Positions 2,761 to 56,886 of a DNA stretch of 61,565 nt are shown one piece after another. Below the pieces are notes generated by a model, which saw nothing but the letters and a program-made list of their open reading frames with translations, searched no databases and was not told the origin of the DNA. A program made the translations under genes and the position numbers. Position 1 is the stretch's first letter; every line of letters starts with the position of its first letter. The stretch comes from Candidatus Caccoplasma merdipullorum (GTDB taxonomy: Bacteria; Bacteroidota; Bacteroidia; Bacteroidales; G3-4614), in the NCBI GenBank assembly GCA_017694415.1, contig JADIMW010000068.1, positions 1 through 61,565 on the forward strand, read 5' to 3'.

Positions 2761-4738
2761 TATTCCTGTCAAATGAGAGAAAGGACTCATTTGTTCCATG
2801 GTAAACCACCCTCGGCTCGCCGTTCTCGTCCACCACTTTCGACGCATCAGCTTGCAGGATTGAAACTAAACGCCTATCTTTGTACTCGGCAGAAGACGGT
2901 ACAGGTGCGCCCCCCGTTGATGTAAAGCCATTGGCAATCTCATAGAGATTGCCTTTTTCTATTTCAGTAAGGCTATGGTCATAATACCTCTTGCCTTGCT
3001 TTACCCCAATTGTTACTTTGACTGTGTAATCGACACCACCTATTTTCAGTCCACACACATAGTATCGGTAGCTGTCATACTTGCCGTTACCTTTCTCATT
3101 AGGGAGTTCATCTATAAATATGGCGTTCTCTATGAGCTGTGGCGTAACCGCAAGCGATTTCAGGTGTGCTTCGTTATCCATGCGGGAACGGATGTCTTCT
3201 GTGTTTTTTTCGGTTTCCGGGTTTGGATTCTCAAAGTTTTTTATTATATTTGATGCAGTTTTAAGTTCTTGAGAGGTTATTTCCTGCTGAACATTGGGTG
3301 ATGCTGAGGAGAACCACTCAAGAGCTTTCTTTTTATCAACCCACTGTAAACTATTGTTCTCATTTATGGGGCGAATTATGTTCTCTATACGCCGACCATG
3401 AACGGTAGTTACATCGTTGACCTCAATATAACGTCCTCCATCTTGTATTTCCGATGATAAATCAAACGCAACAAACACATTTCTTCCAATCTTGTCTTTC
3501 ATTTCTGACAGGATCGACAGCGATTTGTCATCCTTTTTAAACACGAATATAGGCTCTGAAATTTTTTGCGGCATATTGATTATTGAAGAAACTTCTACAT
3601 TGTGTTTTTTGTTTGCGCCCTTATTTACAACTCTTTGTCGCATCACTATCGGCAAATTTGGCAAGAATATGCTCATAACTCCATTTGGTAGGCCAAGGTG
3701 AAACATCTCGTTTTTACTCATTTTTCCTTGCTGATAACGTTCCAACTCCTCGTTAAATCGCCTATTGACCTCTTCGAGGTCGTTATCCATGCGGAAGCGT
3801 ATGTCTGCATTCTCCGACGAAAACGAGCCTGTGTTGTCCGTAGCAGACTTGATTATATTACCTAAATTTTCTACTAACCCCAATTTCGTAGCTGGAGTTA
3901 AAAGTATTTCTCCGTCAGCACCTCTATTTCCAGAATATACACCAACAACAATATTATAAGGCTGTTCTCCATAGAACAATTCGTAGTATTTGTCAATATT
4001 TGTATTTAGTTCAGATACTCTACCTACTACAGAAATACCCTGTTCAAATATCTGGTCTCTATAATTATAAGACCTTCCCCTTTCGTTTATGTCGCCATAT
4101 CTATATGCAACAACAATAGAAGGTATTATTCCTTTTCTAATTGAATTTATAAGTATTTCAATATAATCTTTTTGAGAAACTATACTTTCAAGTAAGTTGT
4201 ATGCTTTTTCTTCTTGATAGAATATAGATTCATTATCCCATTCCATCCCAGTTTCATTCTCAATTTCTGAAATCTTATTTACATAATTATTAGCCTTATT
4301 TATTGAAATATCAAGTCTTGTTATGGGATTTCTTTCTTTTATGTTTAAGTATAATCCATCTATCACCCTCGGCTCGCCGTTCTCATCCACAACTTTTGAT
4401 GAATTTGTTTGCAGAAGAGAAAGCAAACGCTTATCTTTGACAGCAGAAACAGCATCTTCCTTGTTGGCAAACCCCGTATTTATGGGGTCAATACTTTCAA
4501 GGAGGCTGTTTTTTTCTATCTCGGTCAGTGCATGGTCGTAATATGCTTCACCGTCTTTCACGCCAACAACCAGCTTGGCGGTATAGTCCACACTGCCCAT
4601 GCGCAATCCCAACACGTAGTAGCGGTAGCTGTCGAAGCCCGTCTTTTCCTTGGTGTTGGCCTCTTCGGTGATGAACACGGCATTTCCTATCATTTGCGGG
4701 ATGTAGGCCGCAGATTTGAGGTGCGCTTCGCTATCCAT
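2537..4738 (-). CDS. Polyvalent-protein ORF: LPD, unassigned domain, MuF-C-like, LPD, truncated ART
   Basis: This is a 733-residue mosaic. Residues 1-105 are an LPD-like domain (DSYRYYVLGLRMG) ending in KVVDENGEPRV. About 135-305 is a domain I do not recognise (SIVVAYRYGDINERG, GADGEILLTPATKLG). About 350-475 is MuF-C-like (PNLPIVMRQRVVNKG, KISEPIFVF). About 510-640 is a second LPD copy, again ending KVVDENGEPR and then VVYHGTNESFLSFD, the start of a polyvalent-type ADP-ribosyltransferase. The ART is cut after about 30 residues and the ORF ends in about 65 residues of shifted-frame sequence. There is no good start: the ATG lies inside the motif DIRFRMDS, and an in-frame precursor upstream is lost by an extra base near 4790. 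Most likely it is a fragment of a larger ancestral gene. Confidence 0.7.
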   Translation of the reverse strand: MDSEAHLKSAAYIPQMIGNAVFITEEANTKEKTGFDSYRYYVLGLRMGSVDYTAKLVVGVKDGEAYYDHALTEIEKNSLLESIDPINTGFANKEDAVSAVKDKRLLSLLQTNSSKVVDENGEPRVIDGLYLNIKERNPITRLDISINKANNYVNKISEIENETGMEWDNESIFYQEEKAYNLLESIVSQKDYIEILINSIRKGIIPSIVVAYRYGDINERGRSYNYRDQIFEQGISVVGRVSELNTNIDKYYELFYGEQPYNIVVGVYSGNRGADGEILLTPATKLGLVENLGNIIKSATDNTGSFSSENADIRFRMDNDLEEVNRRFNEELERYQQGKMSKNEMFHLGLPNGVMSIFLPNLPIVMRQRVVNKGANKKHNVEVSSIINMPQKISEPIFVFKKDDKSLSILSEMKDKIGRNVFVAFDLSSEIQDGGRYIEVNDVTTVHGRRIENIIRPINENNSLQWVDKKKALEWFSSASPNVQQEITSQELKTASNIIKNFENPNPETEKNTEDIRSRMDNEAHLKSLAVTPQLIENAIFIDELPNEKGNGKYDSYRYYVCGLKIGGVDYTVKVTIGVKQGKRYYDHSLTEIEKGNLYEIANGFTSTGGAPVPSSAEYKDRRLVSILQADASKVVDENGEPRVVYHGTNESFLSFDRNKAGISRNTCERPGRIGRNIWQKFFPERIRDSQKADGRKNGRINNLENKKSYSHRRKSYKNDAYFGFEQNFQHQR
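3830..4345 (-). other. Unassigned domain within the polyvalent ORF
   Basis: Residues roughly 135-305 of the 2537-4738 ORF have a clear alpha/beta pattern with conserved-looking stretches (GIIPSIVVAYRYGD, DQIFEQGISVVGRV, YNIVVGVYSG, GADGEILLTPATKL). They sit where the sister module carries the ART domain, directly after KVVDENGEPRV. By position it may be an alternative effector. I cannot assign it to a named family. Confidence 0.45.
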
Positions 4739-43078: not shown

Positions 43079-43125
43079 AAGCGAGGAGGCGGGATTGTTG
43101 TACTTAGAATCCCGCCTCCTCGCTT
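43079..43125 (+). terminator. Strong bidirectional terminator after rfbB
   Basis: A perfect 18-bp stem AAGCGAGGAGGCGGGATT / AATCCCGCCTCCTCGCTT with an 11-nt loop. It separates rfbB from the convergent thioredoxin-fold lipoprotein gene. Confidence 0.88.
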
Positions 43126-51457: not shown

Positions 51458-54400
51458 TTATCTTACTATCACCTTCTTTACTTCCGATGAATCGCTTGTT
51501 TCAACTTTTACGAGATAGACTCCGGCAGGGAGTTGTATTTCGGCATTTCCTATAACATTATACCCTTTCTTGTAGATAAGTCCCGATTTTGCATCTATTA
51601 CATCGACTGTTGCATTTGTTGATGATGCCAGATATATTTTACCGCTTCCTCCTATTACCGAGAACGGCATATCGGTTATCTCTTCTACTCCCGATGTCGG
51701 ATTGTCTACATCGAGTATGAAATCGACTATTCCTCCTGCGTTATTCAATATAGAGTTCCCGCTATCGAAACGTCCGCACGGATCTGTGCTGTCCCAGTCG
51801 AGTTTGAAACGTATTCTGTATTCTCCCGACGCGTCCTCCGGAACGACAAATGTACCCATTCCTGCCGACCCGTCTTGTGCAGCAGTTGCTCCTGCCGAGT
51901 TTACTCCGTCGATATAGTTAAACGATACCAGCTCTTTCCAATCGGCCGAAGTACCTACATCGAAAGTATAGTTGCGATCCCAATCGACATATACATATTT
52001 ATGCATCCATGCTCCGTTAAAGGTCAATGTCGGGGTAAGCACATCGCCCGGCGAGCATTTAAGCACCTGATCGGTGTGGTCTTCATACACGCACCTGTGG
52101 GCATCTTGCGACAAACCGTTTATACTGATGGTTTGTGCCTCTCCGTTATAGGTAGCTCCTGTTATCTTCACTGCTGTCAGATACCTGTTGTCATTCCCTT
52201 CGGATGCCGGACGATCGGTTCTCGTAATTGTTGCAGTGGAGGTACAATATGCTTTTTCTCTTGTTGTTACTACCACGTTGGCGCCTGATGATGACGCGCT
52301 GACTGTTGCCGTATATACATTATCGCCCGATTCGGTATATGCTACGGGAACTCCATTTACACGTATCTTGTCGAGGAGATAATTTTCATCCGTTATGGAA
52401 ACCTCGATATTCAACGACTCGCCTGCTTCTACTTCATCACCGCTCGACATGGGGTTTCCTTCGGAATCTGTTATTGCAACAGTACAACCTTCGCCTTGGG
52501 ACAATGTCAATTTCGGTACTGATGTCGGCGGAACGGATGAGTTTATTCGGAATGTAAACAGTGTCCCGCGACGGCGTGCCTGACACGGACCGCCTCCGAG
52601 AGTATTATATGCAGGTGCTTCACCGGAGCATAATCTCATTCCGAAACACCCTATTGCAACATCGTCGGGAACGGTTATTTCCGTAAGTTTGTTTTTAACT
52701 ACTGCTCCGGGGTTGTTAAACAACTCGTATGCTTCTGTTGTAGTATTCCATTCTCCGTCCATGTTCCAATCGACATATGCGATTCCTTGCGCCCATGAAG
52801 AGTGAGGATCGCCTCCCGATACATATAGTTGAATGACATCTCCCGGACAAACTTCTGCTATACATGAGCCGGAAAGGTCGGTTATGGCACTGCTTCCTTT
52901 GGAGAATGTAAATGCTTGTACTCCGTTTACGCTCAATGATCCGCCTGAAATTCCATAGTGGTCGCCATCACCGTTATTGGGGGTTGTTCCTGCACAATAT
53001 TCGGGGAATTTGGCTTCAACTTTCATGGTAAGATTAAGATCTTCGTCAAGTCCGGTTAATGGAAGAGGATTGTTCGAGGTCATGGTTGCACCATAAGGCA
53101 TACCGTCCTTGAGCCACTGTACGAACTGGAATCCTTCTCCGGGAACGCAGGTTATTTCGACATTTGTTCCTGCGGCATATTTTCCGTCTGTTCCGGGTTC
53201 AGGCGACAGTGTAAATGTTGCGGCTCCGCTTATGCTCGGAACTGCATTGATGGAGAATCGTTCGTCATCGCCCGGGGTTACCGTTACCATAAAGTCATAT
53301 ACGGCACCTGTTCCTACGGCATCACAAGATGATGTTTCGGTAAGTTCGTTGTCTGTCATTATCAGACGCAGATATACGTCTCCTTTTACAGCATCGTCCG
53401 GCACTGTTACGTTGAACGTATTGGAGCTTGATGTTATGTTGTATGACCCGATATATTCGTCTGAATCGAACGAATGGCTCTTATCCCAGTCGGCCCATAA
53501 AGCTACATTGGCAGATGAAAGTGCGGCTGACGAATTTGCTTTTTCTATATAAAGCGAGAATGTTGTTCCACGTTTTACGTTTACGCCGCCCAATATCGAC
53601 AATCTCTGGATATTGGAGGATATTCCGTCTTCTGATGACGTGCTGCTTCCTACATAGTACAAAGCGGATTGCGATGCCGGGGTTATTGAGGCCTTACCCA
53701 GATAATATTTCGCCGGTGTCTGATATTCCGGCATGCAGAACGGTATTTCTTCGAACCTTGCTACCAGAATGATATTGTAGTCGGGACTGAACCGATATTC
53801 TGTATCGACGCTAACCAGACCTCCGGTTTCCTGATTGTACCAGCCTTTAAACCTGTATCCGGCATTAGGGGTGGCCGTAACTGTTATTGCGGTTTCTTTT
53901 TCAATCATAAGTTCCGTTACACCGCTTTCATATCCTTTGAATTTTACAGCACCCCAATCGCTTTGGTCGCTCTGACCGGTTATCTTTATTATCGGTCTTT
54001 CGGCATATTCCGATATTTCCATAGGAATATTTATTGCGTATCCATCTACTACGGAACTGCAACTTGAATATGCACCTCCTGCGACAGCATCATCGGAAGA
54101 GTCGGTCAATTTTATTCTTATCATGCAAGATGATACTGCCGTAGTTTCGGGAACGGTAATATCGGCAGTATATACTACCTCATCTCCTGAGGCAACGCCT
54201 GATATGCGTCCTATATATTCGCCTTCGGATACAAATTCCTTATCCGCATTGAAGTCGGCATATACATCGGCCACCCATGCTTCGTTTGTTCCGGAATTGC
54301 TCTTTTGTACGAATTCGACGGTGAACTCCCCGCCGGGAATAGCAACTATCGAACCTGATGCGTATTTTTCATATACGGCAGTTCTGGCATCGGATGTTAT

Positions 54401-55084
54401 CGATATATCGGTTGATGCACCTGTGGTTGTTATGCTTGATATGTAACGGTCGGACGTGATTGTTCCTCCAACATTGCAGTAATCGCTAACCGAGCGGGAT
54501 TCGCTCGACGAATTTATTACTATTTCATCGATGTATATATCTATATCGGACGACAGTCGGTTTACCGACGACTCGAGGTCGGGATAAAGCACCAGTCGAT
54601 CTATCGTATAGTTGCTGCCTTTTACTGCAAATACGGCATCGCTCCATGCTCCTGCCCGGGATTCGGATGAGGATAATGCTTGGAACTGGAACGTATTGTT
54701 CTCGGTATCCAAACCTCTCAACAGTATCCGGCTCGATACGGGTTTGTATATAAATATATGTACGTATTGTGTTTCGGTTGTGAGATTGAACGGGGTCTCG
54801 AGTTTTATTTCAACGCCGTTTCTGTCTCCTGCGTAATACGGACGAATATAATGCAACACTTTTGATGTCGGGTTCATATTGTCGGCATACGGGTTGTCTA
54901 TAACTTCGGGAGCATTGCTGCATTGTCCGGTATTGAATGGAGATGCCTCCCATGTATCCACGAACTTGGTTCCGGATGTCATTCCGTTCTCAAATGTTGC
55001 AAGAACGGTCTCTTGTGCTACTGCTTGAGATGTCAAAACAGATATGGCCAGCAGTAATACACTTATATTAAATATTTTTCTCAT
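51458..55084 (-). CDS. Giant secreted GEVED-domain surface protein
   Basis: 1208 residues. Signal peptide (ISVLLLAISVLTSQAVAQ), then an N-terminal carbohydrate-binding-like beta domain. Four GEVED domains have Asp-rich loops at about 280 (VYADFNADKEF), 533 (LWADWDKSHSFDSDE), 773 (YVDWNMDGEW) and 1036 (YVDWDRNYTF). InlB-type or bacterial repeat segments lie between (ATPNAGYRFKGWYNQETG; CVPGEGFQFVQWLKDG). The last 70 residues look like a C-terminal sorting or DUF6383-like domain (LPAGVYLVKVETSDSSEV), suggesting type IX or similar export to the surface. It is 20 nt after the fucosidase gene, so probably an adhesin or glycan-binding partner. Confidence 0.85.
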   Translation of the reverse strand: MRKIFNISVLLLAISVLTSQAVAQETVLATFENGMTSGTKFVDTWEASPFNTGQCSNAPEVIDNPYADNMNPTSKVLHYIRPYYAGDRNGVEIKLETPFNLTTETQYVHIFIYKPVSSRILLRGLDTENNTFQFQALSSSESRAGAWSDAVFAVKGSNYTIDRLVLYPDLESSVNRLSSDIDIYIDEIVINSSSESRSVSDYCNVGGTITSDRYISSITTTGASTDISITSDARTAVYEKYASGSIVAIPGGEFTVEFVQKSNSGTNEAWVADVYADFNADKEFVSEGEYIGRISGVASGDEVVYTADITVPETTAVSSCMIRIKLTDSSDDAVAGGAYSSCSSVVDGYAINIPMEISEYAERPIIKITGQSDQSDWGAVKFKGYESGVTELMIEKETAITVTATPNAGYRFKGWYNQETGGLVSVDTEYRFSPDYNIILVARFEEIPFCMPEYQTPAKYYLGKASITPASQSALYYVGSSTSSEDGISSNIQRLSILGGVNVKRGTTFSLYIEKANSSAALSSANVALWADWDKSHSFDSDEYIGSYNITSSSNTFNVTVPDDAVKGDVYLRLIMTDNELTETSSCDAVGTGAVYDFMVTVTPGDDERFSINAVPSISGAATFTLSPEPGTDGKYAAGTNVEITCVPGEGFQFVQWLKDGMPYGATMTSNNPLPLTGLDEDLNLTMKVEAKFPEYCAGTTPNNGDGDHYGISGGSLSVNGVQAFTFSKGSSAITDLSGSCIAEVCPGDVIQLYVSGGDPHSSWAQGIAYVDWNMDGEWNTTTEAYELFNNPGAVVKNKLTEITVPDDVAIGCFGMRLCSGEAPAYNTLGGGPCQARRRGTLFTFRINSSVPPTSVPKLTLSQGEGCTVAITDSEGNPMSSGDEVEAGESLNIEVSITDENYLLDKIRVNGVPVAYTESGDNVYTATVSASSSGANVVVTTREKAYCTSTATITRTDRPASEGNDNRYLTAVKITGATYNGEAQTISINGLSQDAHRCVYEDHTDQVLKCSPGDVLTPTLTFNGAWMHKYVYVDWDRNYTFDVGTSADWKELVSFNYIDGVNSAGATAAQDGSAGMGTFVVPEDASGEYRIRFKLDWDSTDPCGRFDSGNSILNNAGGIVDFILDVDNPTSGVEEITDMPFSVIGGSGKIYLASSTNATVDVIDAKSGLIYKKGYNVIGNAEIQLPAGVYLVKVETSDSSEVKKVIVR

Positions 55085-55105: not shown

Positions 55106-56581
55106 TTAATAAACCGATATTCTGCTTATAAGCGGGCAAACTTTGCTGTCTGTTATTGATACTCGCACTTTCGATGTAGATACGGGAGAGGAGAGTTTTA
55201 TTATACGTTTGTGGCCTATCGTTGTTGTCTCCTCCGTGGTGGATGCTTTTTGCCATGCGCTTCCAGACCATGTATATATTTCGAAACTTTTTACTCGTTG
55301 TCCCAAACGGATATATTCTCCCAAACGTATATAGTTTACGGTTTGTGTGGAACCTAAGTCTATATCGACCGTTCCGGATGTCTGCCCGTCTTCAAGAGCC
55401 CAGTATGTATCGTCATTGCCGTCAGTAACATTGGAGGCTGCGAATTTCCCTGAAACGGAACTCGAACGTTCGGCAGATGCTGTTGCCGATTTTCCGGATG
55501 CGAGATCTGTGCCAAATGCCCGATCCAACAGAGTCTTGAATTCTCTCATCCTCGTTACAGTTGCATCGGACAACCTGCCGTCTCTTCCCGGAGGGAAATT
55601 CAGTATCAGGTTGGAATTTCGTCCTACTGAAGTCATATATATATTGAACAACTGTTGTGCTGTTTTCAAGTTGGAATCGGATGTCGTGCTTGCAAACCAT
55701 CCGGGACCGTTTTTGGCATCGCATTCCGAGGGGAGCCAGCGCCATCCGTCTTCGTCGCCGTATTCGTTTCCGTTAGCTCCGTTGTTATATATGCTCCACG
55801 AGGTCTCTCCGGCCCATCCTTCTTCGTTGCCGACCCACTGACAATCTTGTTGCCAACCCCATATTGCACAATCGGGCTGCAACTCCTTTATCATTTTGAA
55901 AGTAGTATTGAAATCGTAGTATGTATTGGCATCTATACTGCGGGTTTCACGGGCACCGCCGTAATATCCGTCACCACCGTTGGCTCCGTCGAACCACATT
56001 TCGAAAATATCACCGTAATTGGTACACAATTCGCGTATCTGATTGCGGAATGTCTGAACATATCCTGCACGTCCGTATTCGGCATGGTTTCTGTCCCACG
56101 GTGATATGTAAGCACCGAATTTCAGCCCCTGCCTGCGGCATTCAGCAGAAAGAAGTGCAGGTATATCCACATGACCATAGGTTGTCGTGTTGTTCTTTGT
56201 GGAATGTTCGGTAGTTTCGGTAAACCATGTACAAAATCCGTCGTGATGTTTACAGGTGATAATTATTCCTTTGCATCCGATGTTTTTTATTTCTGTTACC
56301 CATTGCTCTACATCCAGTTCGGCTGTAGGATTGAACGTGTTTATACTCTCGTCTCCATATCCCCACTCCTTGTTGGTATATGTATTTATCCCGTAATGGA
56401 TAAATGCATAAAATTCCATGTTGTGCCAAGCTATCTGCACCTCGCTTGGGACAGGGAATACCGGCTGCGGTATATTCTCTGACGATGATACATCGCATAA
56501 TTGCGAACTTTGTGCTTTTCCTCCCATGGCAAATATCATGAAAGCAGCACAGGCTAAAAAGACTCTTCGTTTCATGCTCAT
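55106..56581 (-). CDS. GH29 alpha-L-fucosidase with C-terminal F5/8C (CBM32-like) domain
   Basis: 491 residues. Signal peptide (FLACAAFMIFAMGGKAQ). The GH29 barrel has EFYAFIHYGINTYTNKEWGYG, IITCKHHDGFCTW, and the nucleophile Asp in FEMWFDGANGG. From about residue 355 a discoidin-type domain (ATASAERSSSVSGKFAASNV, YWALEDGQTSGTVDIDLG) would bind sugar. It removes fucose from host glycans such as mucin. Its 5' leader is about 270 nt and unusually structured. A start at 56575 (MKRRVF) is equally possible. Confidence 0.93.
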   Translation of the reverse strand: MSMKRRVFLACAAFMIFAMGGKAQSSQLCDVSSSENIPQPVFPVPSEVQIAWHNMEFYAFIHYGINTYTNKEWGYGDESINTFNPTAELDVEQWVTEIKNIGCKGIIITCKHHDGFCTWFTETTEHSTKNNTTTYGHVDIPALLSAECRRQGLKFGAYISPWDRNHAEYGRAGYVQTFRNQIRELCTNYGDIFEMWFDGANGGDGYYGGARETRSIDANTYYDFNTTFKMIKELQPDCAIWGWQQDCQWVGNEEGWAGETSWSIYNNGANGNEYGDEDGWRWLPSECDAKNGPGWFASTTSDSNLKTAQQLFNIYMTSVGRNSNLILNFPPGRDGRLSDATVTRMREFKTLLDRAFGTDLASGKSATASAERSSSVSGKFAASNVTDGNDDTYWALEDGQTSGTVDIDLGSTQTVNYIRLGEYIRLGQRVKSFEIYTWSGSAWQKASTTEETTTIGHKRIIKLSSPVSTSKVRVSITDSKVCPLISRISVY

Positions 56582-56694
56582 TATAAAATTTTAATGGTAA
56601 TTATTTTATTGTTTGCATTATGCTTTTTTAATCACTACTGTATTACACCAACAGGCACATTTTGCATTCTACGCTTTAAACGTTGCAAATATTT

Positions 56695-56747
56695 TATCCT
56701 AATAAAGTGCGTCCGACGGGTACTGCCCGGGACTTTATTTAAGGATA
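56695..56747 (-). promoter_or_regulatory. Hairpin in the fucosidase leader
   Basis: Arms TATCCTAATAAAGT and ACTTTATTTAAGGATA pair over 14 bp with a 2-nt bulge. The 23-nt loop can itself form CGGG-TACTG-CCCG. It lies inside the predicted 5' leader on the minus strand. It lacks a U tract, so it is more likely a regulatory or stabilising structure than a simple terminator. Confidence 0.55.
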
Positions 56748-56755
56748 ACCGTTTC

Positions 56756-56840
56756 GCAATTTTGCGATGCGACTTCTCTGCTATTGCGGCAATATATTAT
56801 AATTGCCGCGATTTTATCTGCAGTATTATCGCAAAATTGC
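56756..56840 (-). promoter_or_regulatory. Nested palindrome at the start of the fucosidase transcript
   Basis: Outer arms GCAATTTTGCGAT (56756-56768) and ATCGCAAAATTGC (56828-56840) are perfect complements. Inside, centred on the same point, GCGGCAAT-ATATTATA-ATTGCCGC forms another perfect stem. The two spacers are 17 and 18 nt. The structure begins about 15 nt after the predicted -7 box. It may be a two-site operator or an RNA stem at the 5' end. Confidence 0.65.
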
Positions 56841-56855
56841 ACATATACCCAGTTA

Positions 56856-56886
56856 CAAAGATATATTATTTTGCGTTTTTTTCAAA
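56856..56886 (-). promoter_or_regulatory. Promoter of the fucosidase-GEVED operon
   Basis: On the minus strand TTTG (56886-56883), exactly 19 nt, then TATCTTTG (56863-56856). An ideal Bacteroidota promoter; predicted start near 56850, giving a leader of about 270 nt. Confidence 0.75.

Follow-up and report, generated by a model that had tools for sequence, protein, structure and literature searches.

Three copies of a palindromic word, possible operators, at the start of a secreted fucosidase operon in Candidatus Caccoplasma merdipullorum

Organization of the fucosidase locus

The window analyzed here is a 61,565-nt stretch of contig JADIMW010000068.1 (assembly GCA_017694415.1) from Candidatus Caccoplasma merdipullorum, and contains a minus-strand operon in which a gene for a secreted fucosidase-family protein is followed by one for a GEVED-domain surface protein (Table 1). 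The fucosidase start codon is likely to lie at 56575 rather than 56581, judging from the orthologue in the closest relative (G007, 91% protein identity; identical in sequence to uncultured Bacteroidales CASFRS01), hereafter the sister species. Genes for a Fur-family regulator and PurA lie divergently upstream. The sister species keeps the Fur-purA and fucosidase-GEVED gene order as well as the promoter. Among the neighboring proteins scanned, the only regulator was the Fur-family protein encoded next to purA, and no recombinase was found.

The operon is preceded by a match to the Bacteroidales promoter consensus (PMC7366714). This pattern also arose in 26 of 500 shuffles of the 826-bp intergenic region, and better evidence for a promoter comes from the sister species, in which the block TTTGAAAAAAAC...TATCTTTG is kept at the orthologous place. 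Transcription would be expected to start near 56850, and all positions given relative to the start are estimates. The leader is about 270 nt long, and a 13-bp inverted repeat begins on the minus strand approximately 15 nt past the promoter. A frame of 15 codons (MCNFAIILQIKSRQL, ~56797-56844, minus strand), starting near the expected transcript start, spans the 5' outer arm of this repeat and stops in the inner loop.

Promoter-like blocks were also seen elsewhere. Near-identical copies of TTTGGATTCTCAAAGTTTTT...TATATTTG are found at window positions 2155 and 3222, and identical 32-nt copies of TTTGTTTCTGCTCTCGCCTTTCGCTATATTTG at 2237 and 4863, beside very large reading frames; they may represent gene starts that were duplicated, or a promoter element held in common. 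In the sister species the leader contains another perfect match to the promoter pattern, TTTGTCTCTGCTCTCGTTTGCATTATCTTTG (locus L066, ~3663-3693), that resembles the block at 2237 and 4863.

Table 1. Features of the fucosidase operon and its leader. Positions are those of the window; centers are given relative to the expected transcription start and are estimates.
Feature	Sequence	Position	Strand	Remarks
Bacteroidales-type promoter	TTTG-N19-TATCTTTG	56856..56886	minus	Pattern match; begins at 56886
Site 1 / 5' outer arm	GCAATTTTGCGAT	56828..56840	minus	Palindrome GCAA-TT-TTGC at 56831-56840; center ~+15
Inner arm (5')	GCGGCAAT	56802..56809	minus	24-nt inner hairpin unique in genome
Inner arm (3')	ATTGCCGC	56786..56793	minus	Predicted pairing probability 0.97-1.0
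Site 2 / 3' outer arm	CATCGCAAAATTGCGAA	56753..56769	minus	Perfect palindrome TCGCAA-AA-TTGCGA at 56754-56767; center ~+90
Second hairpin	TTATCCT...ATAAAGT...CGGG / CCCG...ACTTTAT...AGGATAA	56694..56748	minus	Predicted from folding
Site 3	TTCGCAATTATGCGATG	56491..56507	minus	Within fucosidase gene; center ~+350
Secreted alpha-L-fucosidase-family protein with F5/8 type C domain		55106..56581	minus	PF01120 (3.5e-31), PF00754 (7.6e-15)
GEVED-domain, T9SS-sorted surface protein (1208 aa), operon gene 2		51458..55084	minus	PF20009, TIGR04183

A concentric inverted repeat built from a palindromic word

Two perfect inverted repeats share one center in the leader. The outer arms (56756-56768 and 56828-56840) are complementary at 13 of 13 positions with 59 nt between them, and the inner arms at 8 of 8 positions around a loop of 8 nt; the centers, 56798.0 and 56797.5, are 0.5 bp apart, with spacers of 17 and 18 nt between outer and inner arms. 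Downstream, the second hairpin, folded as 56695-56752, has a predicted energy of -16.7 kcal/mol and could not be aligned with the sister species. The preliminary description had reported an ideal minus-strand promoter, perfect concentric arms with matched 17/18-nt spacers and a second hairpin, and our analysis agrees with it on each of these features.

Chance is a poor explanation for this arrangement. In 400 rounds of dinucleotide shuffling, the intergenic region yielded a perfect inverted repeat of at least 13 bp in two rounds and a concentric pair in none; shuffling the whole window 20 times gave no concentric pair either, and the real window has only this one. The concentric feature is real, non-random and lineage-specific, and what we say of its function below is interpretation. 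Four other repeats of at least 13 bp (loops of 3-100 nt) occur in the window, none of them concentric. The longest inverted repeat of the window, a perfect 18-bp repeat with an 11-nt loop, lies between two genes at 43079-43125 and is probably a terminator.

The outer arms are palindromes in their own right, with GCAA-TT-TTGC in site 1 and TCGCAA-AA-TTGCGA in site 2, so that two occurrences of one palindromic word suffice to make the outer inverted repeat. This had been overlooked in the preliminary description, as had a further copy on the opposite strand, site 3, which matches site 2 in 16 of 17 bases. The distances between centers are 75 bp (sites 1 and 2), 261 bp (sites 2 and 3), and 336 bp (sites 1 and 3). 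The exact 13-mer of site 1 (GCAATTTTGCGAT) has just two occurrences in the genome, each of them in this leader, and site 2 is the sole exact genome match to TCGCAANNTTGCGA. All genome-wide statistics are from pattern searches rather than a full scan for concentric repeats; with up to three mismatches the 17-mer has eleven sites in the 2.1-Mb genome, three of them here within 353 bp, compared with six sites for a reversed-pattern control in the same genome. Given a background of 8 sites per 2.1 Mb, about 0.003 extra sites are expected within 350 bp either side, and it is very unlikely that the sites cluster by accident.

Site 3 may owe its presence to a separate cause, because its codons are conserved by the protein: it encodes (S)SQLCD directly after the signal peptide. 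Codon conservation relative to the sister species, which has TTCGCAGTTGTGCGATA at this position, is unremarkable, at 0.67 (70th percentile) compared with a mean of 0.56. The preliminary description had proposed looking for the same palindrome elsewhere in the genome. When the whole genome was searched with TCGCAANNTTGCGA, the one-mismatch sites found elsewhere lay within reading frames with one exception, and no other operon had the word in its promoter.

Conservation in related genomes

Conservation of the arms in relatives had been named in the preliminary description as a test of its proposal, and the outcome was negative. In a genus sample of eight genomes, seven with a clear fucosidase orthologue and one with a paralogue only, the arms were absent from all seven genomes other than that of Ca. 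C. merdipullorum. The leader of the sister species is longer and G+C-richer, cannot be aligned with the leader studied here and lacks the arms. Relatives of the gene, examined in 74 upstream regions of 400 nt each, had no comparable inverted repeat; the longest candidate measured 11 bp and consisted of A/T with a single G. Records of plasmids and phages gave no match to the element. Paired sites were matched in seven of 393 genomes sampled from the order, including this one; in the six others, the matches listed share only the word, and several are tandem repeats. The absence of the arms from the nearest species and from the other six genomes refutes any function common to the genus. This refutation concerns the genus-wide function and, from the sequence comparison, would leave a species-specific one untouched.

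Possible functions of the element

We suggest, tentatively and as a possibility somewhat short of an even chance, that the leader holds a lineage-specific cluster of operators for a dimeric, possibly looping, repressor. The word TCGCAA-WW-TTGCGA would be present just past the start (site 1, in the shortened form GCAA-TT-TTGC), at +90 (site 2), and in the gene (site 3). Initiation or clearance at the conserved promoter would be blocked by a homodimeric regulator that occupies each palindrome. At 10.5 bp per turn, the distances between the sites (75, 261, and 336 bp) amount to 7.1, 24.9, and 32.0 helical turns; being near whole turns, they could allow a tetramer to loop the sites together. The outer part of the concentric palindrome would on this account be a by-product of a palindromic operator written twice. 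Several observations are consistent with such a cluster. Self-palindromic arms would suit a dimeric protein and would not be needed by an RNA stem; the three copies lie within 353 bp, far in excess of the ~0.003 extra sites expected; site 1 is situated just downstream of a promoter that the sister species shares; and the outer stem has a predicted probability of only ~0.2-0.3 in the ensemble of the whole-leader RNA.

Other observations argue against it. Several copies of the word lie near the promoter in excess of chance, but they are not conserved at the orthologous promoter, as the nearest species has the promoter without sites 1 and 2. No regulon was seen and no cognate regulator was found nearby, protein constraint can explain site 3, and paired sites turned up in only six other genomes of the 393 sampled from the order, the matches listed there differing from this leader. 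The preliminary description had suggested symmetric binding of a dimeric or tetrameric regulator at the start site. The anatomy, with operator-like palindromic arms and three clustered copies, speaks for that suggestion, and the lack of conservation speaks against it.

A less probable alternative, and one that we would rate as rather unlikely, is that the element acts as RNA, the long stem (13 + 8 bp) and the second hairpin protecting the 5' end or tuning translation. The 3' arm, which fits the coding copy at 16 of 17 bases, may alternatively pair there, and the resulting two-state switch could be biased by the 15-codon frame over the 5' arm, starting at ~56844. The 270-nt leader has a predicted folding energy of -67.3 kcal/mol (z -3.4), with 1 of 200 shuffles equally stable, and the isolated 99-nt element forms the outer stem at -32.5 kcal/mol. 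This excess of folding is due to the palindrome, because without it the remaining leader (56576-56752) is no more stable than shuffled sequence (z -0.4). The inner hairpin has a predicted probability near 1. In a longer transcript the 3' arm is predicted to pair with the coding copy at a probability of ~0.54, versus ~0.2 for the outer stem. The fold thus exceeds that of shuffles, but 1 of 40 random windows folds as stably as the leader; the leader of the sister species shows no unusual degree of folding (z -1.3 and -0.4); there are no homologous leaders in which covariation might be seen, as the element is found in one species only; and the coding copy, beginning ~70 nt downstream of the likely start codon, would leave the ribosome site uncovered.

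Nor did the leader match a known RNA family, the Rfam search returning one sub-threshold match only, on the other strand and elsewhere. The idea that the leader yields a small RNA, raised in the preliminary description, is not borne out, there being neither a family match nor an intrinsic terminator on the sense strand; a small RNA with ends derived from processing may exist. A fold in the mRNA that controls the operon, raised there too, is possible in view of the z-score and the inner hairpin. The four terminator-like sites in the region (0.9 expected) are all on the plus strand. At 56783-56812 on that strand, a short T-rich stretch comes after the inner hairpin, giving a terminator-like score.

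An alternative of comparable weight to the RNA role, and likewise doubtful, is a neutral origin, in which template switching or slippage in a fast-evolving leader copied a quasi-palindrome, perhaps from the coding region. The leader cannot be aligned with that of the sister species while the promoter and gene can, the arms are missing from the rest of the genus sample, and the element is unique in the genome and absent from the plasmid and phage records, all as this origin would have it. However, the similarity between copies ends after 13-17 bases with no flanking homology that would indicate duplication, and it would have to be by coincidence that site 1 lies directly after the promoter.

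It is very improbable that a recombinase acts on the inverted copies as sites of an invertible switch, or that they are the ends of a small mobile element. The two 17-bp copies, inverted relative to each other (56491-56507 and 56753-56769), do enclose 245 bp that include the start codon, and invertible promoters are known in Bacteroidales (PMC8748976), but the promoter lies outside every arm pair, the element is single copy, and no target duplication was visible. An invertible promoter was accordingly rejected, as the arms do not flank the promoter and the neighboring proteins scanned include no recombinase, and so was a repeated (REP/MITE-like) mobile element, there being a single copy in the genome. 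An integron attC site was dismissed by eye, the GTTRRRY/RYYYAAC ends not being seen. We hold equally slim the prospect of a three-part switch in which the 3' arm would choose between the 5' arm and the coding stretch while the same word would also serve as a DNA operator.

Relation to known systems and significance

In the Escherichia coli lac operon, tetrameric LacI binds operators O1 close to the transcription start, O2 within lacZ, and O3 upstream. The present leader is similar in having a palindromic site just past the expected start and further copies, one of them in coding sequence, but there is no linked LacI-type protein, the word is without a central CG, and the sites are predicted ones.

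Paired SusR-like sites in Bacteroides, direct repeats predicted to serve activators of polysaccharide operons, have center spacings of 67 or 77 bp (PMC3878776). Sites 1 and 2 are likewise two similar sites at long spacing (75 bp), although they are palindromic and downstream of the promoter. FucR, of the GntR family, controls the cytoplasmic fucose catabolic operon of Bacteroides (PMC3878776); the function here is also fucose related, but the fucosidase is secreted and no fucR was seen nearby. The 5' UTRs of Bacteroides thetaiotaomicron have a median of 32 nt, and cis-regulatory RNA or small ORFs are presumed in some of the long ones (PMC7366714); the ~270-nt leader resembles these in length, although it matches no known RNA family and is not conserved. 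These likenesses are analogies and do not establish membership in the lac-like, SusR-like, or long-leader classes.

Because it is absent from the nearest relatives, the element is a local curiosity, and even if its sites are operators it adds no new class of element. In that event, however, they would define the binding word of a regulator for a secreted fucosidase in a little-studied lineage of gut Bacteroidales, and would indicate that such control may appear or disappear between closely related species without loss of the promoter.
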